Assembly (NCBI GenBank): GCA_947382355.1
Contig: CANCYR010000004.1
Span: 1 to 64,000, forward strand
Reading direction: 5' to 3'
Origin: an uncultured Lachnospiraceae bacterium
GTDB lineage: Bacteria > Bacillota > Clostridia > Lachnospirales > Lachnospiraceae
Length of the DNA: 64,000 nucleotides
The position numbers were made by a program, and so were the translations under genes. Below the pieces are notes generated by a model. That model saw only the letters and a program-made list of their open reading frames with translations, did not search any database and was not told the DNA's origin. How positions within the stretch are numbered: position 1 is the first letter of the stretch; each line of letters begins with the position of its first letter. Of the stretch, positions 9,625 through 59,695 are shown in pieces.

Positions 9625-9630
9625 GCAGCA

Positions 9631-9840
9631 GTTCGGCCAACAGTTCCCTCAACAGGCACCGGGGCAGGCTCTGGACTGAAAATGTTTCTACGTCGCCACG
9701 CTCTCGCTCTGATAAAAACGCAGCAGTGCTAAGCTCGAAAGAACCTTGCTAAGCGCTGGCGTTTTTATAAGGGCTCCTTTAGAAATCATTTTCAGTCCAG
9801 AGCCTGCCCCCGTGCCTGTTGAGGGAACTGTTGGCCAAAC
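9631..9840. repeat. Long palindromic intergenic element, copy 1
   Basis: A 210-base element. The outer arms (9631-9684 and 9787-9840) are complementary at 52 of 54 positions. The ~100-base core holds a second stem (9714-9721 AAAAACGC with 9759-9766 GCGTTTTT), an inner imperfect stem-loop with CTAAGCTCGAAAGAAC (9729-9744), and an unpaired conserved box ACGCTCTCGCTCTG (9698-9711). The same core recurs at 59.5 kb (inverted) and 61.5 kb. It could be a structured RNA, a non-autonomous mobile element, or a REP-like element. It lies between the serA terminator and the ftsK promoter. Confidence 0.85.
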
Positions 9841-9874
9841 TGTTATGTGAACAAAAAAACAAACCTATAAAATA

Positions 9875-39000: not shown

Positions 39001-40583
39001 CTTCTTATACGGATGCCAGAGGAAATACTATCCGGTATGATTATGATGAGTTTGGGAACCTGACAGAGCTTACCTATCCAAACGGGGAAAAGGTAATTTA
39101 TACACATGATAAAAACGGAAATAGAAAGAATGCAACAGACTGGGAGGGCAGGACGACAGCCTATGAATATGACAGGAACTCCCGGCTGGTAAAAACCATC
39201 CGTCCAGACGGCACGGTGGAGACAAGGACATATGATAAGGCAGGACAGCTTTTAACCATTCTTGACAAGAAGGGAAGCCAGACAGTTAACAGTCAGGAAT
39301 ATGCCTATGACATAAGCGGGAATATTACGGAAGTGAAGGCTTCACAGAAAGGTGAAATGCAGGTAAGTGGTGATATTGCCAATACCAGTATGGAGTATGA
39401 CAAGACCAACCGCCTGATTAAGTACAACGGGAAGGAAGTGAAGTATGATAAGGACGGAAACATGGTATATGGTCCTCTTAACGGAGAGATGGCAGGCTTT
39501 GTCTATGACTGCCGTAACCGATTAGTGCAGGCAGGGACTACGAAGTATGAGTATGATGCGGAGGACAACCGGACGGCAGTTATCAAGAATGCAGGGACGA
39601 GAGAGGAAGTAAGGATAGAATATGTAGTGGATTCCGTGGAAGAGCTTAGCAGGGTGTTGATGGCGGTTGAAAAGAAGTCCGGGAGTAAAACTTCTGGAAA
39701 CAGCATGGAAAGCACAACTGACAACGGAATTACTGGAAGCATAACAGCAGGCACGACAGCAGGTACGACAGGCAATGAAGCATTCCAGACTACTTATTTC
39801 TACTATGGAAACGGACTGCTTGCACAGGAAAATGAAAAAGAAGGTTACCTGACCTATCATTTCAATAACGTGGGAAGCACTAATGCAGTAACGGATGAAA
39901 ATGGAGCGGTGAGGTATACATATGCTTATAATCCATACGGAGAGTTGACGAAAGGAAGCTATGGGCAGGTTATGTTCCTGTTTAATGGGCAGTATGGGGT
40001 TGCTTCAGATGATAACGGACTGTATTACATGCGTGCAAGGTATTATAATGTGTCCATTAAGCGGTTCATCAATCAGGATGTAGTGACTGGAAGCATAGCA
40101 GAAAGCCAGAGCCTGAACCGGTATGCGTATGTGGAAGGAAATCCGGTTAACTATTTTGATCCGTTTGGGTTGGAACCGTTGTTGACGGATGAATTGCATG
40201 AGTTTGCAAGTGGTTTGTCAGCAGCAGGTGCAGTGGCTGGTTTTCTTAATCCATCGGTCGGATTTTTTATAGGAGAAATTGCATTCTTTTTTGATACAGG
40301 AGTTTATATTAATGATATTTTTACTTCTAAGTTTGATGGTGATGTTATTAAGAAAGCGTTATCAAATACTGTATTTAATGGACAACTTTTTACTGTAGGT
40401 ACTATGGCATATTTGGGTAAGCTTGGAGACGTGAGTAAAATTATAGGGGATATATCTTCAATAATAACTATAGGCACGACAAAAATGAATCTAGAGCAAA
40501 AAATAGTTAAAAAGATAATAGAAAAAGTTAAAGAATATTTAGATGAAAAAAAATCAAAGGAAAAAGGAGACATAAATGACTAA
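27090..40583 (+). CDS. Giant secreted RHS-repeat polymorphic toxin
   Basis: A 4497-residue protein starting at ATG 27090 behind TTGGAGGGG. Approximate domains: signal peptide (1-32); Asn/Gly-rich repeats (33-110); FN3-like (152-235); ~1190 residues of repeated short beta units of LxVxGDxxx type, probably a beta-helix (235-1420); several FN3/Ig-like domains (1430-2395); PKD (2424-2477); carboxypeptidase-regulatory-like (2481-2563); a Gly/Ser segment; DUF6531 (about 2967-3053); about 1000 residues of YD/RHS repeats (3150-4130); Ser/Thr linker; RHS core (about 4231-4361) ending in NYFDPFGL; and a 136-residue variable tip. The plan resembles WapA-type RHS toxins, in which the RHS shell encloses the tip. 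Candidate immunity gene A1 overlaps its 3' end by 8 bases. Confidence 0.88.
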   Translation: MRKTIKRLMAACLIICLLPFADYSTALAAGNAGVVNTGAGNNETGNAGAVNSGVENSEAGNIEVGNTGIEEKNGSNNGEEAGSHSGTEENGGNQEAAEPDGNMAPTEDSTDDIYIEPAGAGSTESFALSENNTGDDGLLPEAGKTDRTGESADCNMQIHAQIHKKGYVELCWQEFEEGASGYRIYRNEQLLAETEETEFQDREPERNAVYAYKVAVLDEEGQEIVQDYSTQIEIPDNYQMDYNSSLILNEDMIVYDLKASGELDLNGHSLTVLNAANLNGRISFHGGSLLVNHDVQINCSGFEMTAEEDYLYAGGNVSWNAWSYGYYDGRVINLQKGTMEIKGDFLAGETDTFLASGDFCTIFNGEEKQTIELYKGEAAFGRVELANNSEEGVYAREPFVCSEFIQNDTRLVVGADEVTSGFELEEDMVMEGDFCLGGGILDLAGHTLTIQGSLIQTGGTVFVNSGRLVIEGDYRIQSRMDNEDENTLEEYQYGKSAGILNMTMDGDEVLVKGGFYTDSKMDHQGMLAKGTLEVKGDFYEYAQSSFGNFIATDEHKVILSGEGKQTVSFGINRASASGFSNLELRNASEEGILFVNRPYVAGELNGNDTRTEGEVSVGSRTVYKNGCYGGDIYVIGNFAVREPLTIGGNVTVASYLSLYDRMTVEGNVTVQKNCLTFMGGELIVKQNFSVLGGSANYGIKMTNETDRLSVSGDFYYEAAGSMSKAAGTIEVKGNVEIVKGFIAEGSHVFLLNGDGKQEVSMKEGNAFYELWVENYSEEGVHVLTDIIFDSIKENGCNITYFSGMLSKDETVDGDYELTGENFNFNGKTLTVNGDYIQRQGILKLNKGKLVVEGDFILSEGTVQMTGGSIIVKGSLIQEGGTIQVENGSLTIEGDYRLQKRSGQEADYSYEACSGILQMTKEGGRVLVKGDFHTASTADHTDCFTNGILEIKGNLVQETGGNECNLVFSMEHLLLLSGTEKQTVSFLPVKLEKDKLYYQRMSCIANLEVTNKGKEGIEFINEPVVNGRINDNHNKITGAISIININWNKAIFEDGYYGGDIALWCGRLGYGYKDEIHIAGDVRAYSGLSASNNLEIEGDCVVIEGSMNPDKYCISVGGNLTIKNTSYGLYFSNSGKVVVEGNLDYQPDKYREGYLESGTLEVKGDALISGSFRTSGTQVIFSGEKKQMIYAGAALFKRLVLSNNSEEGVIANMLLNYSDLETNGCRIVYGMENDLEYAVTGFTLQEDYTAKGDLYLMDGNMDLNGHTLTVEGDLIQASGDMNINGGALIVKGSYRMQYRTGLEGSYKYGSGKGGLVMTGEKDRVLVCGDFYCSTLKNMSGLLTNGTMEVRGDFRQNAAENFIATENHTVVLGRKLDENGSAFVQTVFFERSPGITRFHKVVLTKLNETGYVFKNDISSISDEVLYDYCDEEPPSAVTKISVTGAECSSITIAYEGAVDNERILGYEIYRDGVKIGETSAKSFKDSGLKADKEYTYQVFAFDGYRNVAKTSPECAGRTLVDLEAPEAVRGLKIKSVTGSSVTIVWGRSSDNVEVTGYKVYGDGKELATVNGECIYKDMGLSEGKVHTYQVTAIDESGNESEKSEEVKASAKMPEFLHILPNNDNSIGGENVTLSAFYGGEYKTGDCSLDIEYYDQEKKEWTSIVQGLSGDSYISPQCYCLYYKWNISEFPEQKLKVRFMLSDVDGNTTTKEQSYYIDRTPPKKPVGVIAKDQEGTIAVSWNPSSDKDCSYYNVFRIERKTGECKKIKVLFGIDNNSCIDSSVVAGKQYEYYVQAVDNFGQESILSDSAFVFVSEDTQAPELQSIQVPQKVNKIANINVYARDNRKISEIALYYKAEREETYRLLEKKSSARTIQRFEWDTTKEKDGNYILKAVAVDEAGNCSDSLSVRTVRCQVDNTGVSQVKITGSTVTSTEVQLTWSDLKEKDRAGFQVVRIEGEKRIPMTYEKALGANLKYLKPNTEYTFVVIGYDDVGNPGPESEPYKVTTQSDTISPVISYLYARCSGKKHNIQLSYRVIDNDAVDKIMFSYSRDNINYEEICTVSSDGNRVCEDNVYWDITDVEEGNVYVKVSAYDQSGNMTETSENDAVQFPIDKTAPNPVKNLHILDDNSTFTWDKAEEEDFKEYKIYRSYLNADMFRYIGKTSTNSFCDRTAAESQTYYYKVTAVDLYDNESDESDIIIWTSVADRIAPKVTGFSIGNGKTAGRNPEFHVISTDNFALSAISMEYRKKGTDSWLPIGEYQVEGDVAELKETWSTEGLVSGTYEIRIAAIDKRENYSDYYTVDFYLDVDAPKTPAITAEEIEGKVHISFSENTEEDFTGYKLYKKENSSDRYECIMEGTENEYSDEEVALSTKYLYYVEAYDQTGNYSSSEEAVIVTDDVDKQAPKVTLGSFEPIEGREMEFFPETEWDNVEIVKYIWDFGDGETSTARNPRHTFREPGKYTITLSVEDEAGNRKMAQSQVEVAPKGTKGVHKLFVRDENDQPVKNAAVILYLSDDNQPMYYTDDSGTVSITGEKGIFQVAVNAEGFSIQEGTVTIDSERDTESRIILKNGLPIMGNIETKKLSLEELKDLGVDFTATDNFSRYTFYGELTFVRQGVKTETIRISAGSQGSSGSGGNYGGGCGFSNGRGGTGTITQLRDSEEPVFAYFYMEPTTVSWLKDMYQVQFAILNMADEKYPIENAKAVLELPKGLSLAKLKTAQTLSKEIGTVGGNQERATSWVVKVDAAGEHTVNVNFQGILQPFGTKVKQTFSATGRYTSTNGKGLHLYIYPEKTAHNLETYYVQYQLVNEADIDCNYVTVNFGKYETPEKVEKVYSYLNGELHNVIEKRSGIRYYMPSKGVDGQLPILSKGDSLTVETLKPGQSIYGTYARIFQGLGKPEETYYKLCSVMVKEIKSETNANLKVTVQPKEGHLEKSRLFVDINLGSYTNDLISALKNVLNTLSESFTPKKCSGDPVNIMTGGFESSQTIMQAAGINKLDFTISYDSRNTEEKGDMGYGWYHNYESRIEECGNGIRVYWNPNSYATFANKNAMNSIVEGIYQDGTMWLTDTLSENNVPKEEQKQTRNAVSENSVLENSVSKNSISEKDIYSYFSGNFGQDYEQDENIISREGSDIGMEQIEEGKNTYLPTSEGMKGCRVLKTEEGYCMYAAGGECFRYDTEGNLASVENQKGQKITFTRSGSCMVIADEGTDKSITAYYDENGNITTLRDNGGNQAVFTYDGNNNLTAVKSKGGTTTAYQYDENHRILSGKDTDGNLFVENTYDEKGRVLTQDDGDQTTELMEISYEDDEESGRTTISVKNTNGGRETVVANMFGEGLTYTDSLGAVTQWEYDAEGRVTAFREGDGNSGRIAYDENGNIISQTESGGKTTAYTYDENNRLLSQNCNDGTSLTYTYGENNQPVSITSGNGATVRYEYNENGQVTKETVEGLGETAYEYSGGLITQITDSNGNVSKCLYDSIGNVVQCINGKGIVTDYEIATNGKVLKETVTLADGSKAVTSYAYDAYGNQTGKTDANGNTTAYTYDRNDRLVKETRADGSAIIYERDVDGNITKITYPDGMTTIEAAYDTAGNLLTLKDALKSTMVQNFNSGSQLMGTALANGGQITYSYYDNGLLKSETDAMGNTTAYTYDGAGRVTGITDKMGNTTSYGYDSAGNATTVIKPEGETVTIAYNQYRQAVSTTDAKGNIIRYEYDGMGNCVRMTDALGHVTEYEYNGSNEIVKVIRKGENGHDDIILTYAYDHLGNVTSVTDGEGNTYRMDYDKVGNLKAVYDAYGTAVESYSYDKVYNQTSVKDAKGNETEMSYDSLGNMVSMLNKATGSATTYAYVGGQLLSSSTDALGGKVTAEHDAMGNIKRFTNPNGGVTEYTYDLNKRVTGESIGSEYKHTYEYNANGQVIKKTNSRGQVTEYTYDKAGRLTSLTDQLGTIRYAYDKNGNVLTVADSQGTITREYDALNRVTSYTDARGNTIRYDYDEFGNLTELTYPNGEKVIYTHDKNGNRKNATDWEGRTTAYEYDRNSRLVKTIRPDGTVETRTYDKAGQLLTILDKKGSQTVNSQEYAYDISGNITEVKASQKGEMQVSGDIANTSMEYDKTNRLIKYNGKEVKYDKDGNMVYGPLNGEMAGFVYDCRNRLVQAGTTKYEYDAEDNRTAVIKNAGTREEVRIEYVVDSVEELSRVLMAVEKKSGSKTSGNSMESTTDNGITGSITAGTTAGTTGNEAFQTTYFYYGNGLLAQENEKEGYLTYHFNNVGSTNAVTDENGAVRYTYAYNPYGELTKGSYGQVMFLFNGQYGVASDDNGLYYMRARYYNVSIKRFINQDVVTGSIAESQSLNRYAYVEGNPVNYFDPFGLEPLLTDELHEFASGLSAAGAVAGFLNPSVGFFIGEIAFFFDTGVYINDIFTSKFDGDVIKKALSNTVFNGQLFTVGTMAYLGKLGDVSKIIGDISSIITIGTTKMNLEQKIVKKIIEKVKEYLDEKKSKEKGDIND
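37760..39664 (+). repeat. 1.9-kb duplicated block, copy within the full-length RHS gene
   Basis: This block reappears at 41548-43452 with a constant offset of 3788 bases. I see no difference by eye, and the translations in several frames on both strands are the same. Differences start sharply at 39665/43453. Upstream, homology continues but is diverged. Confidence 0.9.
40173..40583 (+). other. Variable C-terminal tip of the RHS protein (toxin candidate)
   Basis: The 136 residues after the PFGL end of the RHS core are unlike the rest of the protein. Two hydrophobic glycine-rich stretches (around SAAGAVAGFLNPSVGFFIGE and LFTVGTMAYLG) are followed by a Lys-rich helical end (IIEKVKEYLDEKKS). Base composition drops to AT-rich exactly here. 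No nuclease or deaminase motif is visible. A membrane-active or membrane-delivered toxin is an inference, supported by its partner being an integral membrane protein. Confidence 0.6.
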
Positions 40584-41130
40584 AGTATTATGGTTAATAT
40601 TATTAGTAATCATGCATTTTGCTGTATTAAGTTTTTTTGATGAGTATTTAGTTGCTAGGCATCTGCTGTTTCGTTGTAAAATAAAAGTTGCAAAAATTAT
40701 AGGTTTTGGAAAATCTAAACTATTTGATACAATGTACTTTTATACAATTATTAGTTATTGCGAGCAAAAACAAGGGAGTGTGGTAAAAATATCACGGAGC
40801 AAGGATGACGAAATAGGTAAGGAGATAATGGTAGCAGTTAAAGCGGATGGGAAATTAGCTGTAAGATATGAAAAAAATAATTGGTATGGCAAGTTATTTT
40901 ATAACTTGGAGGGAACTAGCCTTGGGAGTGGATTGGGTTTGAAAGGATATATATGTGCGTATGTATTTTTAAATAGTATAATGGCTTGTTCATGTATATT
41001 AGAACCTGAAGGGGCAATGAGATTATATCAAATATATCTATTAATTGTTATAATACATTATTTGCTAATGCCGCAAATAGTTGAAATTAGAAATTATTTA
41101 TACGAGAAGAATAAAGTTGAGGATATGTAG
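40576..41130 (+). CDS. Family A membrane protein A1, candidate immunity protein
   Basis: A 184-residue membrane protein with an N-terminal helix (about 3-22), a soluble central domain and two C-terminal helices (about 133-170). Its ATG lies 8 bases inside the RHS stop, so toxin tip and this gene are translationally coupled, as expected for a toxin-immunity pair. Motifs shared with A2-A5 are FFDEYLVARH, IGFGKSK, KISRSKDDE, VKADGKLAVRYEKNNWYG and IHYLLMPQIVEIRN. I do not recognise the family. The immunity role rests on position and paralogy only. Confidence 0.7.
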   Translation: MTKVLWLILLVIMHFAVLSFFDEYLVARHLLFRCKIKVAKIIGFGKSKLFDTMYFYTIISYCEQKQGSVVKISRSKDDEIGKEIMVAVKADGKLAVRYEKNNWYGKLFYNLEGTSLGSGLGLKGYICAYVFLNSIMACSCILEPEGAMRLYQIYLLIVIIHYLLMPQIVEIRNYLYEKNKVEDM

Positions 41131-41276: not shown

Positions 41277-43978
41277 TGTCCGTTATAAATATAACGAAAA
41301 CAGGCAGGTTACAAAAGAAAACGTGGAAGGCCTTGGGGAGACGGTTTACCCCATTTCAATGGGCTGCTTACACAGGTGACAGATTTCGATGGAAATGTAA
41401 GCAAATATGTTTATGGCTCAATAGAAAATATAGTATATTATATTGATAGGAAGGGCACCATCACCGACTATGAAATCGCACTAAATGGAAAAGTGTTGAA
41501 GGAGACCGTTACCCTTGCGAATGGAAGCAGGGCAGCGCCATTACCCATGAGCGGGATGTGGACGGCAACATCACAAAGATTACCTATCCCGACGGAATGA
41601 CCACCATAGAGGCAGCTTATGACACAGCAGGGAACCTGCTGACATTAAAGGATGCTTTGAAATCCACCATGGTACAGAATTTTAACAGCGGAAGCCAGCT
41701 TATGGGTACGGCACTGGCAAACGGTGGACAGATTACTTACAGCTATTATGACAACGGACTTTTGAAAAGCGAGACGGATGCCATGGGCAATACCACTGCC
41801 TATACCTATGACGGTGCGGGAAGAGTAACCGGAATTACCGACAAAATGGGCAATACCACATCTTATGGCTATGACAGCGCAGGGAATGCGACTACTGTTA
41901 TAAAACCGGAGGGGGAAACGGTTACTATTGCCTATAATCAATACCGCCAGGCAGTTTCCACCACGGATGCCAAAGGGAACATCATCCGGTATGAATACGA
42001 TGGGATGGGTAACTGTGTCCGTATGACAGATGCTTTGGGACATGTAACGGAATATGAATACAATGGCAGCAATGAGATTGTAAAAGTTATCCGGAAAGGT
42101 GAAAACGGACATGACGACATTATCCTTACCTATGCCTATGACCACCTTGGAAACGTCACATCCGTCACAGACGGAGAAGGAAATACTTACCGGATGGACT
42201 ATGACAAAGTGGGGAACCTGAAGGCTGTTTATGATGCCTATGGCACGGCAGTGGAAAGCTACAGCTATGACAAGGTCTACAACCAGACCTCTGTAAAGGA
42301 TGCCAAAGGAAATGAGACCGAAATGTCCTACGACTCCCTTGGCAACATGGTAAGCATGCTGAACAAGGCAACAGGCAGCGCCACTACCTATGCCTATGTG
42401 GGCGGGCAGCTCCTAAGCTCCTCCACGGATGCCCTGGGCGGAAAAGTGACTGCAGAACATGACGCCATGGGCAATATAAAGCGCTTCACCAATCCAAACG
42501 GCGGCGTGACGGAATACACCTATGACCTGAACAAGCGGGTAACAGGAGAGAGCATAGGAAGCGAATATAAGCATACCTATGAATACAATGCCAATGGACA
42601 GGTCATAAAGAAGACCAACTCCAGGGGACAGGTGACGGAATATACTTATGACAAAGCAGGAAGACTCACAAGCCTTACAGACCAGCTTGGAACCATCCGC
42701 TATGCTTATGATAAAAACGGAAATGTGCTGACTGTAGCGGATTCTCAGGGAACCATCACAAGGGAGTACGATGCCCTGAACAGGGTGACTTCTTATACGG
42801 ATGCCAGAGGAAATACTATCCGGTATGATTATGATGAGTTTGGGAACCTGACAGAGCTTACCTATCCAAACGGGGAAAAGGTAATTTATACACATGATAA
42901 AAACGGAAATAGAAAGAATGCAACAGACTGGGAGGGCAGGACGACAGCCTATGAATATGACAGGAACTCCCGGCTGGTAAAAACCATCCGTCCAGACGGC
43001 ACGGTGGAGACAAGGACATATGATAAGGCAGGACAGCTTTTAACCATTCTTGACAAGAAGGGAAGCCAGACAGTTAACAGTCAGGAATATGCCTATGACA
43101 TAAGCGGGAATATTACGGAAGTGAAGGCTTCACAGAAAGGTGAAATGCAGGTAAGTGGTGATATTGCCAATACCAGTATGGAGTATGACAAGACCAACCG
43201 CCTGATTAAGTACAACGGGAAGGAAGTGAAGTATGATAAGGACGGAAACATGGTATATGGTCCTCTTAACGGAGAGATGGCAGGCTTTGTCTATGACTGC
43301 CGTAACCGATTAGTGCAGGCAGGGACTACGAAGTATGAGTATGATGCGGAGGACAACCGGACGGCAGTTATCAAGAATGCAGGGACGAGAGAGGAAGTAA
43401 GGATAGAATATGTAGTGGATTCCGTGGAAGAGCTTAGCAGGGTGTTGATGGCAGTTGAGAGGAAGTCTGGGAGCGAAACTGTTGGAAGCAGCATGGAAAG
43501 CACAACTGACAACGGAATTACTGGAAGCATAACAGCAGGCTCGACAGCAAGTACGACAGGCAATGAAGCATTCCAGACTACTTATTTCTATTATGGGAAT
43601 GGACTGATTGCACAGGAAAATGAAAAAGAAGGTTATTTGACCTGTCATTTTAATAATGTAGGAAGCACCAATGCAGTAACGGATGAAAATGGTGTAGTGA
43701 AATATACATATGCTTACAATCCATATGGAGAATTAACAAAAGGAAGCTTCGGGCAGGTTATGTTCCTGTTCAATGGGCAGTATGGGGTTGCTTCGGATGA
43801 TAACGGGCTGTATTACATGCGGGCAAGGTATTATAATGTATCCATCAAGAGGTTCATTAATCAGGATGTAGTGACTGGAAGCATAGCAGAAAGCCAGAGC
43901 CTGAACCGATATGCGTATGGATCTGCTACATTTATTTTTTATGATAGGGTTTCATTTTATAACAATGAGTTATTATGA
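41277..43978 (+). pseudogene. Truncated second RHS 3' region lacking a toxin tip
   Basis: Homologous to 37365-40135 of the full-length gene. The first ~260 bases are diverged (about four in five bases alike) and lack any start. A 124-base deletion relative to the full-length gene then shifts the frame near 41536. From 41548 a long intact frame runs for ~800 codons through the RHS repeats and most of the core, ending LNRYAYG at the exact place where the full-length protein goes on to VEGNPVNYFDPFGL. After the junction it runs out of frame into family A gene A2. It has no signal peptide and is probably silent, acting as a donor of sequence for recombination. Confidence 0.85.
41548..43452 (+). 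repeat. 1.9-kb duplicated block, copy within the truncated RHS
   Basis: Second copy of 37760-39664, offset 3788 bases with no insertion or deletion and no visible substitution. Both edges are sharp: CCCATGAGC here against TTTATGAGC at the left edge, and a run of substitutions from 43453 at the right. Confidence 0.9.
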
Positions 43979-44471
43979 TGAATTTTTGGTTTCAAGGCAT
44001 CCTTTATTTTCCAGTAAAATAAAAATGGCAGAAATTATAGGGTTTGGAAAAAGTAAAAACTTTCATGGTGCAAGAGGTGCTGCGATAGGATATTATACAA
44101 AAATCAGCTATTATGAACAAGATAAAGAATATATGGCAAAAATATTTAGAAGTATGGATGATGAAGTAGGTAATAAAATAGCAGTGGCGGTTGAAGCAGA
44201 TGGCAAATTAGCAACTAGGTATAAAAAGTGTAATTGGTATGGTGAGGGATATGGAGCGAAAAGGGGAGGGGCGCCTGGATTGATAATGGACATGTGTATG
44301 TATGCGTTTATTCATATAATAACGGCTTGTTGGCTTGTCCTAAATTTTGAAGCTTCATGGAAAATATATTTTATATATATTCTGACTGTAATATTGCATT
44401 ATTTATTTTTACCACAAATAGTTAAAATAAGAAATCTTATATGGGAAAAAGAACAATTTAAAGATTTGTGA
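43911..44471 (+). CDS. Family A membrane protein A2, candidate orphan immunity protein
   Basis: A 186-residue paralogue of A1 with the same layout and motifs (YYDEFLVSRHPLF, IGFGKSK, KIFRSMDDE, VEADGKLATRYKKCNWYGE, LHYLFLPQIVKIRN). The apparent ATG at 43911 lies inside RHS core codons (the sequence for NRYAYG), in a different frame; ATG 43917 is an alternative. A deletion or recombination that fused the RHS core directly to the immunity gene removed the toxin tip. No independent promoter or good ribosome binding site is visible, so expression is uncertain. Confidence 0.65.
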   Translation: MRMDLLHLFFMIGFHFITMSYYDEFLVSRHPLFSSKIKMAEIIGFGKSKNFHGARGAAIGYYTKISYYEQDKEYMAKIFRSMDDEVGNKIAVAVEADGKLATRYKKCNWYGEGYGAKRGGAPGLIMDMCMYAFIHIITACWLVLNFEASWKIYFIYILTVILHYLFLPQIVKIRNLIWEKEQFKDL

Positions 44472-44534: not shown

Positions 44535-44786
44535 ATGGATGAACTGCAAGCTAATGGTGTGCTTATTTCCGCAAGCAACGAGCCAAGTGATTGTGTGCAA
44601 GCATTTGGTGATTGCCGCAAGGGTCAAATCCTCCGCCCCTTGGGGCATTTCAAGTTTGGTGCCGCACTGCTTGTGGCGGAGTATTTGATTTCAACCATGC
44701 AAAAGGACTGCTTGCATAGAAGAAAGGATGGGTATCTGACGTATCCTTTTAATAATGTAGGAATGACCAATGCAGGAACCGATTAA
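44535..44786 (+). pseudogene. Composite remnant ending in a degenerate RHS core
   Basis: An 83-codon open frame. Its first two thirds (QANGVLISASNEPSDCVQAF...) are GC-richer than the surroundings and of unknown origin. The last third (CLHRRKDGYLTYPFNNVGMT) is a degraded copy of the RHS-core segment KEGYLTYHFNNVGSTNAVTD, ending at a stop. It reads as scar tissue from an earlier RHS cassette rather than as a working gene. Confidence 0.55.
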
Positions 44787-44833
44787 AAAGGAGCAGAGAA
44801 GTATGTATTGATAAATAAAGGATGGGTAAAAAA

Positions 44834-45454
44834 ATGAATAGCTGGATTTGGGCAAGGGACAACGTAAGTAAGAGGACATTATTTGATTTTAGAAACGCAT
44901 TTGATGCAGGGGTAATATTGCTTTTAATCAATACTGTGGTTTTGATTTCTATGACTGGAAGATATATTTTTAATTTCATTTTGTTATTTTACATATATCC
45001 AATTATTAGTTACTGCTTTCTTATAAATAAGACTGTTAAGTTTAATGAATTGGTGGAATGTGGGAGACTTATTATATGTCAGATAGAAAAACAGTATACT
45101 TGTTATAAGGCAATGTACAGGTCAAAAAGGCGAACAATGTATTGTAGCTGGTTTGATGCGGAAAAAAATAAAACATTATTATTTCGGGCGGACAACATGC
45201 TTTACTATTTAAACGGCAAAAACAGAAGCGGAGGAAATCTTGATGAGATTTTGCATGTATATGTAATGTTTGACCCGAACAATCCAAAAAAGTATTATGT
45301 CTTTCATGATGAATTGATGATGGAATCAAGCACTTGCCTGGAAGGTGCTTCATCTTCAAGTTTATCAAAGTTATTGTTTGGTGCAGATATCATTCTGCTA
45401 ATTATTGTATGTGGGGTGATATGGATAGGTAAAAAGAATATAATATTTTTATGA
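44834..45454 (+). CDS. Family B membrane protein B1
   Basis: About 206 residues (start at ATG 44834; ATG 44822 is an alternative). It has two N-terminal hydrophobic helices (about 22-66), a central soluble domain with a CQIEKQYTCYK segment and a PNNPKKYYVFHDELM motif, and a C-terminal membrane helix (about 180-200). The central part resembles B2 at 49943 (VVVNPRNYHEYIVLFEDVLL). It lies directly after an RHS-core remnant, the same relation that A1 has to the RHS tip, so it may be an orphan immunity gene. I do not recognise the family. Confidence 0.6.
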   Translation: MNSWIWARDNVSKRTLFDFRNAFDAGVILLLINTVVLISMTGRYIFNFILLFYIYPIISYCFLINKTVKFNELVECGRLIICQIEKQYTCYKAMYRSKRRTMYCSWFDAEKNKTLLFRADNMLYYLNGKNRSGGNLDEILHVYVMFDPNNPKKYYVFHDELMMESSTCLEGASSSSLSKLLFGADIILLIIVCGVIWIGKKNIIFL

Positions 45455-45660: not shown

Positions 45661-46287
45661 ATGAAAATTGAAACAACTCTAACCTATGAGCAGTTTAAAG
45701 AAAAATTTGAACAGCATGTGATGCCTGAAAACAGCTATCAGTATAAATACCGAAAGCAAATATATTTTTTAGGAACTCTTTCAAATGAATATATGTCAAT
45801 TAGATGCTTTATGCCAAACCAAAGTTGTACTGGCAATGGAATAACAGGCAAAGTTGTGGAAGAAATGGGAAAGTGTACGATTACATATAAGATGAATCGA
45901 CCTGATTGGCTACATCAGTTAGGTATGATAATGATGTGGATTCCGGCTGTTTTTACAGTTCTTTTGCTTACTGTATTTGGAGTTACAATGGGATTCCTCC
46001 CAAGTATATATAAGAATGATATTTTCATAAATACATTAGCAATGCTTTTCTTAATTTTAGTTATAGGCGGAATATTCTTTTTGTGTTGTGGCTATGCGCT
46101 TGGAATACTGAGCAAAAAAGAGGGAGAATGTTGCAAAGCAGAATTGGAAGATATTATTAACAATGGTCCGGTAAAAAATGATTTTAAACGGCCAGACAAA
46201 AAGGACATGTTTCAAAAAAGAATAATAGAAATCACATTTAGTATAATAATTTTTGTTATAATTATATTGTCTAAAATCTTGTTATAG
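45661..46287 (+). CDS. Family C membrane protein C1
   Basis: 208 residues, starting with MKIETTLTYEQFKEKFEQHV. It has a soluble N-terminal domain (about 1-80), two central helices (about 88-115 and 125-152), a KKEGECCKAELEDIINN segment, and a C-terminal helix. The LTYEQFKEKFEQH start and the KKEGE-C motif recur in C3 and in fragments C2 and C4, defining a third paralogous family in the array. It starts at an ATG behind AGAAGAGGAAAAATGT. Role unknown; candidate immunity protein by context. Confidence 0.6.
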   Translation: MKIETTLTYEQFKEKFEQHVMPENSYQYKYRKQIYFLGTLSNEYMSIRCFMPNQSCTGNGITGKVVEEMGKCTITYKMNRPDWLHQLGMIMMWIPAVFTVLLLTVFGVTMGFLPSIYKNDIFINTLAMLFLILVIGGIFFLCCGYALGILSKKEGECCKAELEDIINNGPVKNDFKRPDKKDMFQKRIIEITFSIIIFVIIILSKILL

Positions 46288-46309
46288 CCATATTATGTAA
46301 GATTCCCTT

Positions 46310-46671
46310 ATGACTGCCACAAATGTTTGCTACAGGCAGGGACTACAAAGTATGATGCATCTACTATGGAAAGGGACTGCTTGCACAAGAAAATGAAAAA
46401 GAAGGCTCTCTGATGTATCATTAATGTAGGAAGCACCAATGCAGTAACGGATGAAAAGGGAGCAGTGAAGTATACATATGCCTATAATCCATACGGGGAG
46501 CTGACGAAAGGAAGCTATGGACAGGTCATGTTCCTGTTTAATGGACAGTACGTGAGTAAAAATGTCGGAAATATAAATTCAGGAATAATAATTGGAGTGA
46601 CAGTAGTTGATTGGATAAAAAAGAAAATTAAGGAATGTATTGATGAGAAAAAGAAGAAAATGAAGAGGTAA
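46310..46671 (+). pseudogene. RHS core remnant with a short tip remnant
   Basis: The first ~130 bases are a degraded RHS core, with frameshifts, corresponding to the CRNRLVQAG...YGNGLLAQENEKEG segment. From 46465 a 68-codon frame reads MKYTYAYNPYGELTKGSYGQ and ends abruptly at FNGQY. It then passes into VSKNVGNINSGIIIG and a Lys-rich end (IKECIDEKKKKMKR) that resembles the end of the full-length tip (KVKEYLDEKKSKEK). It is thus the collapsed 3' end of another RHS-toxin cassette. Confidence 0.7.
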
Positions 46672-46682
46672 TGTGGCTGGAT

Positions 46683-46847
46683 ATGAATGAAAAAATATTA
46701 CTATTAGGAATTATAGAGATGCATTTTTTAATAATAAGTTATTTTGACGAATTTTTAATTGCAAGGCATCCACTATTTCATTGTAAATTAAAAATGGCAA
46801 AAATGATAGGATTTGAAAAATGTATCATTATACAATGGTGCAGGTAA
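46683..46847 (+). pseudogene. Family A fragment A3 (N-terminal part)
   Basis: A 54-codon frame beginning MNEKILLLGIIEMHF and containing YFDEFLIARHPLFHCKLKMAK, clearly the N-terminus of family A. Homology stops after IGFEK and a stop codon follows. It directly follows the collapsed RHS tip at 46671, preserving the toxin-immunity order of the intact pair. Confidence 0.8.
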
Positions 46848-46987
46848 CTTTTTTATATCTTCTATAATTGTTACATAAATAAGTGCAAATGCAGAAAAAA
46901 TAGTAACGACTATTGAAATAAAAATAATTTAGCGATAAAATGGAATTACCAAAATTCGTGTAATGCACAAAAACAAGGAGTGACATT

Positions 46988-48241
46988 ATGGAAATTAAGA
47001 GAGATTTATACCTTGAACAGTTAAAGATAAGAAAAGATAACGAAATGATTAAGATTATCACAGGAATTAGGAGATGCGGCAAATCATTCCTGTTATTTGT
47101 ATTGTTTAAGAAATATTTATTGGAAAGTGGTGTAGACAATGACCACATCATTGAGATTGCATTAGATGGCATTGAAAATGAGGAGCTGAGAGATCCAAAG
47201 AAGTGTTATCAGCATATTAAAGATGTAATGAAAGATGACCAGAAGTATTATCTGCTTTTGGATGAAATACAGTTTATGCCACGATTTGAGGAAGTGTTGA
47301 ACAGCTTGCTTCGTATCGGTAACATTGATGTGTATGTAACCGGCAGTAATTCTAAATTTTTATCCAGTGATATTGTAACTGAATTCAGAGGCAGAGGAGA
47401 TGAAATCAGAATTTATCCGTTGTCCTTTGCAGAGTTTTATGCGGTTTTTGATGGAGATTATGATGATGCTTGGGAGGAGTATATGATATACGGTGGGTTG
47501 CCACAGGTAGCACAATTTTCCGTGGAACGCCAAAAGGCTGAATATCTTAAAAATATTTTTACCAATGTTTATATAAAGGATGTAGTAGAGCGAAACAGGA
47601 TTCAAAATGTTGATGAAATCGGAACCTTGGTAGATATACTGGCTTCTGCCATTGGAGCACCTACCAATCCGACAAAAATATCAAATACTTTCAAAAGTGA
47701 GAGAGGTATCAATTACAGCAATAAAACTATATCCAACCATATTGATTATCTGGCAGAGGCATTTTTGATTTCTAAGGCAGACAGATATGATATTAAGGGT
47801 AGAAAATATGTAGGAGCAAACCTGAAATACTATTTTTCGGATGTAGGACTCAGAAATGCCAGACTGAACTTCAGACAGCAGGAGCCTACCCATATTATGG
47901 AGAACATTGTTTATAATGAGCTGCTTGTGCGTAGTTACAATGTGGATGTCGGCATTGTGGATGTATATGCAAAGAATAGTGAAGGAAAGAGGGTTCATAA
48001 GCAGTTAGAGGTTGATTTTGTAGTAAACCAGGGCAGTCAGAGATATTACATTCAGGTAGCTTATGATATGACTTCTGAGGAAAAGCAGACACAGGAACTT
48101 AATTCACTCCGCAATATTCCGGATTCATTTAAGAAGATTGTTATAGTAAATGGAACGAAAAAGCCTTGGAGAAATGAGGAAGGATTTGTAATCATGGGAA
48201 TGAAATATTTTCTGCTCAATGTGGATAGTTTGGAGTTTTAG
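46988..48241 (+). CDS. AAA ATPase with DUF4143
   Basis: A 417-residue protein of the widespread AAA_14/DUF4143 group. The ATPase domain carries Walker A GIRRCGKS and Walker B LLLDEIQ (about residues 24-100), followed by VTGSNSKFLSSD and GRGDEIRIYPLSFAEFY. The C-terminal DUF4143 part is PD-(D/E)XK-nuclease-like (LEVDFVVNQGSQRYYIQV). It has its own AAGGAGTGACATT ribosome binding site. Members of this group are often encoded in mobile or variable regions, and their function is unknown. Here it sits inside the immunity array, flanked by family A fragments A3 and A4. It is unrelated to these by sequence. Confidence 0.85.
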   Translation: MEIKRDLYLEQLKIRKDNEMIKIITGIRRCGKSFLLFVLFKKYLLESGVDNDHIIEIALDGIENEELRDPKKCYQHIKDVMKDDQKYYLLLDEIQFMPRFEEVLNSLLRIGNIDVYVTGSNSKFLSSDIVTEFRGRGDEIRIYPLSFAEFYAVFDGDYDDAWEEYMIYGGLPQVAQFSVERQKAEYLKNIFTNVYIKDVVERNRIQNVDEIGTLVDILASAIGAPTNPTKISNTFKSERGINYSNKTISNHIDYLAEAFLISKADRYDIKGRKYVGANLKYYFSDVGLRNARLNFRQQEPTHIMENIVYNELLVRSYNVDVGIVDVYAKNSEGKRVHKQLEVDFVVNQGSQRYYIQVAYDMTSEEKQTQELNSLRNIPDSFKKIVIVNGTKKPWRNEEGFVIMGMKYFLLNVDSLEF

Positions 48242-48270: not shown

Positions 48271-48534
48271 TGGGTAAGTACAATAGAATATAATTATGCT
48301 GCCAAATATGGAAAGTGCAGAATATATAATGAACATGAATATGAAGATAATGGGAACAGAAGTGGAATGTTTTGCGCATTTGTATTGATTTCATTAATCA
48401 TAATGGATATTTGGTTTGGAAAAATTAAAGAAGCATGCCTGATTTTAATAACATTGATGTGTATTCATTATTTGCTTATGCCTTTGAGTATTCAATTGAG
48501 AAATAGCATATGGGGAAGTTCACAAAGAAAGTGA
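48271..48534 (+). pseudogene. Family A fragment A4 (C-terminal part)
   Basis: An 87-codon open stretch without a start. It contains AAKYGKCRIYNEHEYEDNGN, then two membrane helices and MCIHYLLMPLSIQLRNSIWG, corresponding to the C-terminal half of family A (compare YGKCNWYNEEDG and MIHYLCLPFIIRLRNSLW in A5). A3 and A4 could be the two ends of one gene split by the ATPase gene, with the middle part lost. Confidence 0.8.
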
Positions 48535-48649: not shown

Positions 48650-48684
48650 AAATAGTACTAAATGTGCTGTGAGGAGTGTGCACT

Positions 48685-49403
48685 ATGAATTATTCAATTA
48701 TTGAAACGGATTTATCATATGAACAATTCAGAGCAAGATATGAAAAGCATGTAGAAGTGAATCTGGTTGGTGGCAGGAAAAGAGAATTGGATAAAGAGTC
48801 ATACTTGGGAAATATAAATAAAAATAGCTTTGTGCTGGGCTGTGAATTGCCATTATTGCGCGGTGCAGCAAATTGGATGACCGGAACAATAGTGGAAGAG
48901 GATGGAAAGTGCATTTTAATGTATAAGATGACATTTCAAGATGATTTCTATAAATGGGGCAAAAAAGTTTTTTAGCAGTATTTTTACTTAATGCTATTAT
49001 TTTGCTGATTTCCTCATATTGGAAGGGAATTCCGGCAGGTTTTTATATGTGCTGCTTTATGTTATCCCTATTTGCTGTAATGGCTGGAATCATGATTTGC
49101 AATACTAAAAAAGAGGGTGAATATTGTAAGAAAAAATTAAAAGAAATTATTGCCGATGATTTAAATAGGCGTGAAGAAAACTCTTTTAAAGAAACCAGAA
49201 AGATTCAGGCAAAAGTAATTATGTTGGATAATTTTCATAATCCGAAGTTACTAGTCTGTCAGGAAACACGGGAGGATGGAGTGCAGGTTCAATATTATAA
49301 AGACAAAGAAAATGAATGCTTTATAGAAAAGCCTGGTGATTTTGTTACTGTAGAAATAGATATGTGGGATGAAAGTAAATATAGAATTTTCGAGGAAAAA
49401 TAA
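48685..49403 (+). pseudogene. Family C gene C3 with a one-base frameshift at a T-run
   Basis: Two open frames together form one family C protein. The first (from ATG 48685, behind GAGGAG) reads MNYSIIETDLSYEQFRARYE... to FYKWGKKVF and stops at 48973-48975. The -1 frame continues LAVFLLNAIILLISS with two membrane helices, NTKKEGEYCKKKLKEI and a C-terminal extension not seen in C1. The break lies in A6-G-T6 (48961-48973); adding one T restores the full frame of about 240 residues. This is either a mutation, a sequencing error, or a slip-prone site. Confidence 0.75.
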
Positions 49404-49404
49404 G

Positions 49405-49836
49405 ATGCGGAAAATGAATATTGCTATTTTAGTCATTATCATGATTGGCGCTTTAAGCGGTTGTGGGGCAAATTTATTAAAAGATGAAAAATGTGATGCA
49501 TATTTGGAGCAATCCATTGAGGCAATTGCAGGGAAAGATAAGGAAACCTTTCAAGGATTATTTTGGAAAGAAATTATGGAAAGCAGCGAAACAGATTGGG
49601 ATGAAGCCACCAATGATGTCATGGAAAACTGGAAAGGGAGTCTGGAAAGCTATGAAATGACTGGAAAAAATGTCAATGTAAATAGCAAGAATTTTAATAC
49701 CAAAACATATGTTTGATGCACATATCGTGTTGTTACCACAGAGGAGACTTATAATGTTGTAATAGTCAGAGTAGAGGATAAGGAAGGGCTTGATGCCATG
49801 AGTAGATTTTACTTTGAAAAAAATTATGAGAAATAA
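49405..49836 (+). pseudogene. Lipoprotein gene interrupted by an in-frame TGA
   Basis: It starts one base after C3 and encodes a lipoprotein signal peptide with lipobox LSGC (MRKMNIAILVIIMIGALSGC). The frame stops at TGA 49714-49716 after 103 residues, but continues open in the same frame to a TAA at 49834-49836 (143 codons in all), and the continuation (TYRVVTTEETYNVVIVRVED) looks like normal protein. The simplest reading is a nonsense mutation. Family not recognised; small lipoproteins of this size also serve as immunity proteins in some systems. Confidence 0.65.
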
Positions 49837-49942: not shown

Positions 49943-50578
49943 ATGTATGGCATGGCAGATAGCGTTTTATGTGTAAGAAAAAGAGGAATATGGAAGGAAA
50001 AAGAAATATATCTTACGATTGTTTCAATCATTTTCCTAATCTATGCCATTGCAGGATACGGAATGAATTTTGAACTGAATATAAAAACCTTTAATTATGC
50101 AAGCATAGTTTTCATAATTGCCTGTTTATGTTTTATAGCGGCATTAACGATTAATATTCGTGTAAACAAAAGAAAAAATCAATTGCTTGTTTCAGGAGAA
50201 GTTATCTTCGCAAAAATTGATAGAAAGCATTCATGGATAATGCCAGATGAAGCAAAAATAAAATGCAGTTACATAAAAAGCGGCGTTTTATGGATTTTTG
50301 AAGCAAGGCATATAGAAACAGGCGTAGGACTTCATACATCTGATAGATTTTATGATACAGATGTTATGCCAGTCGTAGTCAATCCCCGGAATTATCATGA
50401 ATATATAGTGTTGTTTGAAGATGTGCTGTTAAGTTCCAGAAAAGGAATAAACAGACCTATGTATTTTACGAAGGTGATAAGAAAAATAGGCCTAAACAGC
50501 CAATTGGCTCCGTCAGGAACTAATGCTTCATCAATAGCAGCAAAGAGAGAAGAAAATGAAGAAATTAACGATTATTAA
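49943..50578 (+). CDS. Family B membrane protein B2
   Basis: 211 residues with two N-terminal membrane helices (about 24-44 and 52-75), then a soluble domain containing LLVSGEVIFAKIDRKHSW, a histidine-rich segment and VVVNPRNYHEYIVLFEDVLL, ending in a polar tail. The overall plan and the NP-[KR]-x-Y motif link it to B1, although identity is low. A GGGAGAAGTAGC ribosome binding site precedes ATG 49943. It overlaps fragment C4 at its 3' end. Candidate orphan immunity protein; function unknown. Confidence 0.6.
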   Translation: MYGMADSVLCVRKRGIWKEKEIYLTIVSIIFLIYAIAGYGMNFELNIKTFNYASIVFIIACLCFIAALTINIRVNKRKNQLLVSGEVIFAKIDRKHSWIMPDEAKIKCSYIKSGVLWIFEARHIETGVGLHTSDRFYDTDVMPVVVNPRNYHEYIVLFEDVLLSSRKGINRPMYFTKVIRKIGLNSQLAPSGTNASSIAAKREENEEINDY

Positions 50579-50736: not shown

Positions 50737-51261
50737 ATGAGTTTAAAAGCTATATTGACACTAACATTAATAGTATTTTATTATGCCATGCTCACATATT
50801 TTGAAGAATTCCTCACAGCCAGACATCCTTTCTTAAAAAAACATTTAAAAACAGGCATTATTCAGGAATTTGGCAGCTCCAGGATTTTTTATAGATCAGG
50901 GGCAATGAGAGAATTTTATACGATAGTCAAGTATCATGATAATGATAAAGAACATACCGTGAAAATATCCCGCAGTCTGGATGATTGTGTTGACGGGAAA
51001 ATTATTCTGGCAGTAGGAAAAAACAACACTGCTGTAAGATATGGAAAATGCAATTGGTATAATGAAGAAGACGGAGCCTCCTGTTCCGGGAAAACTATTT
51101 TAGCGCTTTTTGTATTTGTAATTATAATCTTTCACATTGTAATAATATGGGCTAATGAAATAAAGCAGGTATATTCCGTTTTTTTACCATTTATGATGAT
51201 ACATTACTTGTGCCTCCCGTTTATTATCAGGCTAAGAAATTCACTCTGGCAATTAAAATAA
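50737..51261 (+). CDS. Family A membrane protein A5
   Basis: A 174-residue, apparently intact family A member with an N-terminal helix (about 3-22), YFEEFLTARHPFL, YTIVKYHDNDKEHTVKISRS, VRYGKCNWYNEEDG, two C-terminal helices and IHYLCLPFIIRLRNSLW. An ACAATAGGAGAAAATC ribosome binding site precedes ATG 50737. It is the most diverged family A copy, and it closes the array. Confidence 0.7.
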   Translation: MSLKAILTLTLIVFYYAMLTYFEEFLTARHPFLKKHLKTGIIQEFGSSRIFYRSGAMREFYTIVKYHDNDKEHTVKISRSLDDCVDGKIILAVGKNNTAVRYGKCNWYNEEDGASCSGKTILALFVFVIIIFHIVIIWANEIKQVYSVFLPFMMIHYLCLPFIIRLRNSLWQLK

Positions 51262-59479: not shown

Positions 59480-59695
59480 CCGTTCAGTCCTCCGTTTTTC
59501 CATCCGGGAATCGGGAGCGGCTGCAGGCAGAAAATGATTTCTGAAGGAGCCCTTATAAAAACGCCAGCACTTAGCGAGGTTCTTTCGAGCTTAGTACTGC
59601 TGCGTTTTTATCAGAGCGGGAGCGTGGCGACGCAGAAACATTTTCTGCCTGCAGCCGCTTCCGATTCCTGAATGAAAAAACGGAGGACTGAACGG
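59480..59695. repeat. Long palindromic intergenic element, copy 2 (inverted)
   Basis: A 216-base element. The arms (59480-59536 and 59639-59695) are complementary at 53 of 57 positions. The core is the reverse complement of that of copy 1: GTTCTTTCGAGCTTAG at 59579-59594 corresponds to CTAAGCTCGAAAGAAC. The arms differ in sequence from those of copy 1 except for the innermost AAAATG, but share CTGCCTGCAGCCG with the partial copy at 1-69. It lies between ddh and the terminator at 59700. Confidence 0.85.

Follow-up and report, generated by a model that had tools for sequence, protein, structure and literature searches.

The window, the whole stretch of 64,000 nucleotides that was analysed, comes from an uncultured Lachnospiraceae bacterium and encodes a main Rhs protein with a tip of 136 residues behind its junction. 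The tip is followed by a family A gene, its predicted immunity gene, and further downstream lies an array of immunity-type genes of families A to E, together with a second copy of the RHS core (cassette 2), scraps of core and the collapsed remains of a third cassette (cassette 3). The positions of all features are given in Table 1.

Table 1. Features of the Rhs locus and the downstream gene array (positions in the window).
Feature	Position	Strand	Remarks
Main Rhs protein, 4504 aa	27069..40583	+	ORF; RHS_repeat and Rhs_assc_core matches in the last part
Main Rhs junction NYFDPFGL and tip	40149-40172 (junction); 40173-40580 (tip)	+	
A1, family A, predicted immunity gene of the intact tip	40576..41130	+	Overlaps the end of the tip gene by 8 bases
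Cassette 2, RHS core copy	41278..43919	+	41531-43919 98% to main core, 41278-41535 78%
A2, orphan family A gene	43911..44471	+	Abuts the cassette 2 core
RHS core scrap ahead of orphan B1	44688..44804	+	
B1, orphan predicted immunity gene, family B	44822..45454	+	
C1, orphan predicted immunity gene, family C	45661..46287	+	
Cassette 3, RHS core remnant	46309..46550	+	Internal deletion, frame broken; blastn
Cassette 3, tip remnant	46552..46671	+	Final 39 residues and stop; tblastn, shuffles
Cassette 3, A3, N-terminal remnant of a family A gene	46683..46847	+	Sequence matches
AAA_14/DUF4143 ATPase gene	46988..48241	+	Flanked on both sides by family A remnants
C-terminal remnant of another family A gene (G268:C2 subtype)	48289..48531	+	
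C2, family C gene	48676..49403	+	Two overlapping frames
E1, lipoprotein-like predicted immunity gene	49369..49716	+	
D1, orphan predicted immunity gene	49943..50578	+	81% to the gene after open tip G399C9_4053
A4, orphan family A gene	50737..51261	+	

Several of the immunity-type genes in the array are open, have no tip and are related to genes that are found next to tips. For each of the families A to E, an open tip elsewhere in the genus is immediately followed by a related gene, in the case of family B a weakly related one (B1, 26%, E 6e-8). The dN/dS values of the array genes ranged from 0.10 to 0.57 in all 10 pairs that were compared. Searches of the window found no tip between the core of cassette 2 and A2. 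The core scrap ahead of B1 is perhaps another collapsed cassette, its tip being gone. The two frames of the family C gene (region 48676-49716) probably reflect a frameshift, and the lipoprotein E gene comes next; C2 is likewise followed by E in G268:C4 (L031) and, in a decayed form, in G397:C56 (L033), where an A gene is next. A metallophosphoesterase gene is located 3' of the array in the window and in three of the eight loci that were fetched (L031, L033 and L036). As L036 carries a core scrap and an A-like gene beyond it, the array does not end strictly at the metallophosphoesterase gene.

The original prediction had placed an RHS core remnant, a tip remnant and the N-terminus of a family A gene at 46310-46847. 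These coordinates were right, and blastn and tblastn recovered all three pieces, in one orientation and in the same order as in the intact module upstream. When 46270-46990 was compared with the window by blastn, the core remnant matched the main gene in two blocks: 46309-46355 with 39504-39550 (81%, E 2e-6) and 46360-46550 with 39799-39994 (88%, E 3e-67). The core sequence between the two blocks is absent, and the second block contains a 5-base gap. A tblastn search of the window using the intact tip as a query (E up to 1) returned the tip itself and 46552-46665 only (47% over 45 columns, E 4e-5). What had been described as a 40-residue tip remnant consists of the last 39 residues and the stop codon and is the counterpart of 40431-40565 only. 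Its stop codon TAA (46669-46671) is 11 bases away from the ATG of A3 (46683-46685). Against the 13 tips of the genus sample described below, none of 500 shuffles reached the score of the tip remnant solely for the window tip (78) and for G268C2_4846 (57), a tip of the same type. The A3 frame comprises 54 codons and is ended by a TAA (46845-46847); its residues 1-46 match A1 (52%, E 5e-13), and its DNA is 79% to A1 over 106 bases and 79% to A2 over 115.

As in an orphan module, a fragment of the main-gene core is located 5' of the tip, downstream of the main pair, and a gene that is tip-specific, judging by the covariation over 13 tips, follows directly 3' of the tip remnant. The tip junction was not found in cassette 3 by searches of the window, so the tip is incomplete, and so is the immunity gene, given the early end of the A3 frame. 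Cassette 3 was filed as a decayed remnant rather than as a module, because only the C-terminal part of the tip is left and the junction was not found. Neither a whole tip nor a whole family A protein can be made from it. The remaining tip cannot act as a toxin, and A3, of which one helix and some of the beta domain are left, is very probably unable to protect.

The toxin-to-immunity order of cassette 3, shared with the intact pair, had been taken as support for family A being specific to this type of tip, and an alignment of tips and adjacent genes had been proposed as the check. We examined six genomes of one genus. Out of 38 core-end rows collected, 13 tips at the ends of RHS cores of a close type were used. 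Two window remnants (tipless or truncated) and 23 rows with other, partial or broken cores, among them G399:C9:654, were left out; no contig with a family A proper match carries any of these 23. The next gene was defined as the first frame of at least 100 residues, and next genes were classed as family A proper (E 1e-28 or better) or as distant A-like (1e-10 or weaker). One type of tip starts with EPLLT right after the junction. The four open EPLLT tips (the window, G268:C2 twice and G398:C48) all have a family A gene next, in the order of the intact pair, and among the 13 tips from the six genomes family A proper follows none of the nine tips of other types. The genes next to these nine are family B (two), D (one), C (one), lipoprotein E (one), distant A-like (two) and other genes (two). 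The chance of four A genes falling on exactly these four of the 13 tips is 1/715, or 1/330 without the two tips that are short (40 and 37 residues). A looser count, in which A-like next genes occur at six of the 13 tips, gives a chance of 0.02. The similarity of the tips was strongly correlated with that of their next genes (Mantel r 0.94, 0 of 20,000 permutations), a figure that concerns 13 tips and permutations that ignore shared ancestry. A full-length Rhs gene carries the EPLLT tip in the window only; the RHS frames with the other three tips are open but shorter (573, 299 and 211 residues). A profile made from the four EPLLT tips found no further tip below E 0.1 among the 13. A profile made from the four A genes, which themselves score E 5e-76 or better, found distant A-like next genes at G400C36_13910 (E 4e-11) and G268C4_234 (E 1e-9).

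The reverse test covered 23 A-type rows, two of them with less than 700 nt of upstream sequence (641 and 322). Five rows have an EPLLT tip or remnant at most 700 nt upstream, and all five are family A proper or A3. Another four are distant A-like genes after other tips or a scrap of a B-type tip (G268:C4:666, G400:C36:14290, G398:C48:60421, with a gene between, and G399:C9:394), and the remaining 14 were counted as orphans. The orphan G268C4_5551 has 14 residues of an E-linked tip 658 nt upstream, ahead of an E gene, and the orphan G397_45980 has 23 residues of EPLLT tip (E 2e-4) inside a C1 relative, which was taken as chance. The case of G399:C9 (L036, 125-824, minus strand), where a distant A-like gene comes after scraps of a core and of a B-type tip, is an exception to strict matching. 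The four distant A-like genes at other tips place the specificity at the level of the subfamily. Thus, the comparison of sequences supports the proposed tip-type specificity for family A proper within the genus, but not for the distant A-like genes, which occur at other tips. We infer that family A would neutralise the EPLLT tip.

The agreement between tip and immunity gene was also followed at the level of subtypes. The tip remnant of cassette 3 scores 78, 57, 29 and 22 with the tips of G000, G268C2_4846, G268C2_8180 and G398C48_54789, and the N part of A3 scores 58.5, 45.1, 28.9 and 33.1 bits with the respective A genes. The ranks agree for the two best partners and disagree for the two weakest, with 39 and about 46 residues being compared. 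The best matches of A3 overall are two orphans, at 61.6 bits. The A gene located after tip G268C2_4846 (L032, 3447-4436, minus strand) continues into a family C-like C-terminal part (C2b), and the immunity modules appear to be fused there. A 142-residue frame, which may resemble an IS200-type transposase, is located 1220 nt past the stop of the same tip, inside the Rhs array of G268:C2 (L032).

A-type matches were found in all six genus genomes examined, although G400 has distant or decayed ones only, and every family A match of the source genome falls inside the window. Family A was detected in two of 397 sampled genomes of the family, both belonging to this genus, and in none of the other 395 (best 8 candidates per genome). 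The named records with family A matches are two Lachnospiraceae MAGs and one Robinsoniella MAG. A search of viral contigs with the family A alignment gave 53 stretches that fit a pattern and no relatives, and a tblastn search of plasmids using A2 gave no match. Outside the genus, the tip profile, which includes the shared junction, had three matches in two genomes (G330, E 3e-11; G112, E 2e-5 and 2e-4). By eye, these tips have a loose hydrophobic pattern alone in common, and their next genes encode other small membrane proteins. Neither G330 nor G112 has a family A match.

Pfam searches with the four EPLLT tips and seven A genes gave matches far under the cut-offs only, as did NCBIfam searches with the window tip, A1, A2 and A4. 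For A1, A2 and A4, Pfam gave no match to DUF443 up to E 1, and D1 has a weak one under the cut-off (E 0.0085). Family A might be taken to resemble DUF3592; Pfam reported no such match for family A, and the literature search returned no paper containing both 'DUF3592' and 'immunity protein'. The structural model of family A (about 180 residues, pLDDT 79) is predicted to contain a helix, a small beta barrel, two long helices and a short one. No Foldseek match to this model was found at E <=0.001, and the best hit in a fold search had a Z of 5.2, a value in the range described as common; the hits included many small beta barrels. When solved structures were searched by sequence, the best matches had E 0.35 (tip) and 0.59 (family A). 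The fold model of the tip was set aside (pLDDT 43). A hydrophobic segment at the threshold of 1.6 is predicted in 10 of the 13 tips and in all 13 next genes; the window tip is one of the three tips without such a segment (maximum 1.48). Judged by these segments, a membrane target is likely for some of the tips. For the window tip it is a guess, since the tip model is unusable and no segment reaches the threshold.

Taken together, 46309-46847 is very likely a displaced, decaying Rhs tip/immunity module within an array of orphan immunity-type genes. Cassette 3 would once have formed the end of an Rhs gene similar to the main gene. By recombination at the shared core, a new tip and immunity gene would have been set ahead of it, whereby the old end moved downstream, and later deletions would have removed part of the core and approximately the first two thirds of the tip, with A3 then being left without its C-terminal part. 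The orphan immunity-type genes A2, A4, B1, C1, D1 and E1 are probably of similar origin. Repeated tip replacement fits with the 98% core copy, the shared metallophosphoesterase gene and the existence of counterparts after open tips for families A to E; the similarity of the cassette 2 core to the main core is as expected from a recent recombination or duplication. The protective-type genes have probably been kept while the toxin parts were lost, as suggested by the range of dN/dS values, the lack of a tip before A2 and the mere 39 residues before A3. The open orphans would most likely shield the cell from siblings or relatives with matching tips, whose toxicity would perhaps be exerted at the membrane. 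As several of the open tips are found on short RHS frames, they need not be in use.

Other explanations for the scrap can be considered. Its tip remnant is short and Lys-rich, and a chance resemblance in an AT-rich, Lys-rich stretch might be suspected. This was rejected, and has a negligible probability, given the E value of the tblastn match (4e-5), the outcome of the 500 shuffles at two EPLLT tips, which was not seen at the nine tips of other types, and core and A3 matches far past chance level. The scrap could also be a stored donor cassette from which the main Rhs gene could be supplied with another tip. Orphan fragments in Salmonella are described as recombining onto the main gene (PMC3967940), and the scrap still has a 191-base stretch of core that is 88% identical to the main gene. 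However, no whole tip could be loaded from 39 of 136 residues behind a frame-broken core, and A3 is truncated too, which makes a donor function very improbable. The original prediction did not include the C-terminal family A piece at 48289-48531, past the ATPase gene. This piece and A3 lie on either side of the ATPase gene, with the order and strand that a split gene would have, and an insertion of this gene (46988-48241) into a single A3 gene was the explanation that we favoured at first. It was dropped, and is now considered unlikely, because the two pieces belong to different subtypes: the N-terminal piece is of the A1/A2 type (79% DNA), whereas the C-terminal piece is 86% in DNA to G268C2_7752 and 27-32% in protein to A1/A2. 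Furthermore, about 40 residues are missing between the pieces, and no exact repeat of more than 8 bases was found between the two borders. The difference in subtype makes two decayed A genes the simpler reading, and on sequence similarity the piece at 48289-48531 more probably derives from a separate A gene than from the lost end of A3. Of the five other genus genomes, four carry relatives of the ATPase gene, on other contigs; one of these relatives, located at a contig edge (G398:C95), is 98% identical over residues 183-417.

With regard to function, family A might, instead of being an immunity protein, travel with the tip as its specific chaperone or delivery partner. Covariation by itself would suit any tip-specific partner, and the family A model, a small beta barrel between helices, names no function. 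Nevertheless, open A genes persist under constraint with no EPLLT tip near them, as exemplified by A4 with G268C4_5551 (dN/dS 0.25) and G268C4_8421 with G397_45450 (dN/dS 0.57), and such orphans fit better with immunity than with a delivery partner. Toxin followed by immunity gene is also described as the usual order in such systems (PMC3482391). A role as chaperone or partner therefore seems improbable.

Decayed orphan modules and immunity arrays are of a kind that is already well known. Orphan cdiA-CT/cdiI and rhs-CT/rhsI modules have been described behind CDI and Rhs loci (Poole 2011, PMC3150448; Koskiniemi 2014, PMC3967940), and these accounts include orphan fragments without the junction motif (PMC3150448), orphan modules disrupted by mobile elements (PMC3150448, PMC3967940) and an orphan tip recombining onto the main gene (PMC3967940). 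Cassette 3 resembles these orphans in having a core scrap, a tip fragment and an immunity gene downstream of the main pair. It differs from them in that its tip consists of the C-terminal 39 residues, its immunity-type gene is truncated and its host belongs to a Lachnospiraceae genus. For strings of immunity genes it has been proposed that each gene is likely a leftover of a past tip replacement (Zhang 2012, PMC3482391), which is the same history as proposed for the window array. In relation to the families of that study, the comparison was made through Pfam and NCBIfam, and the window tip and family A stay below the cut-offs of both. The tspA/tsaI locus of the Firmicute Staphylococcus aureus is described as having a toxin that depolarises membranes, followed by an array of membrane immunity genes in which a toxin fragment is embedded (PMC9484751). 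The window array likewise has a toxin fragment within an array of immunity-type genes. In contrast, TspA is presented there as a type VII secretion toxin, and TsaI is a DUF443 protein, a domain for which A1, A2 and A4 have no match. Ionophore CDI toxins with hydrophobic CdiI proteins, two-helix hairpins of 72-100 residues (PMC11630599), and the pore-forming Rhs toxin Tse5 (PMC10684867) have a hydrophobic toxin end in common with the tips considered here, and the CDI toxins also have a membrane immunity protein. Family A proteins are longer than these CdiI proteins, and in their model helices flank a beta barrel.

The EPLLT tip and family A may constitute an undescribed pair. Among the papers found for Rhs in Lachnospiraceae and for orphan immunity in Firmicutes, none describes it by its title or the start of its abstract, which is no proof that the pair is unpublished. 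It is possible, though we would put it at somewhat under even chances, that the pair represents an undescribed membrane-acting toxin and an immunity protein of new architecture (a helix, a small beta barrel and two helices), both diversifying in parallel within one Lachnospiraceae genus, the arrays serving as a genus-wide immunity library against the tips of sister species. This reading is held more weakly since short frames carry three of the four EPLLT tips, which may also differ in their position in the genome. The scrap itself represents ordinary decay. As a further pairing, however, it joins the four open ones in linking a family without a curated name to one type of tip. Such pairings predict which orphan genes would protect against which tips, and they yield candidate cognate pairs for tests of immunity specificity in this Lachnospiraceae genus.

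Outside the array, imperfect palindromes of about 215 bases are located at 9629-9842 and 59480-59695 of the window, with a mutual inverted match of 95% over 116 bases. A related stretch is present at 2-68, and the set is possibly a small mobile element.
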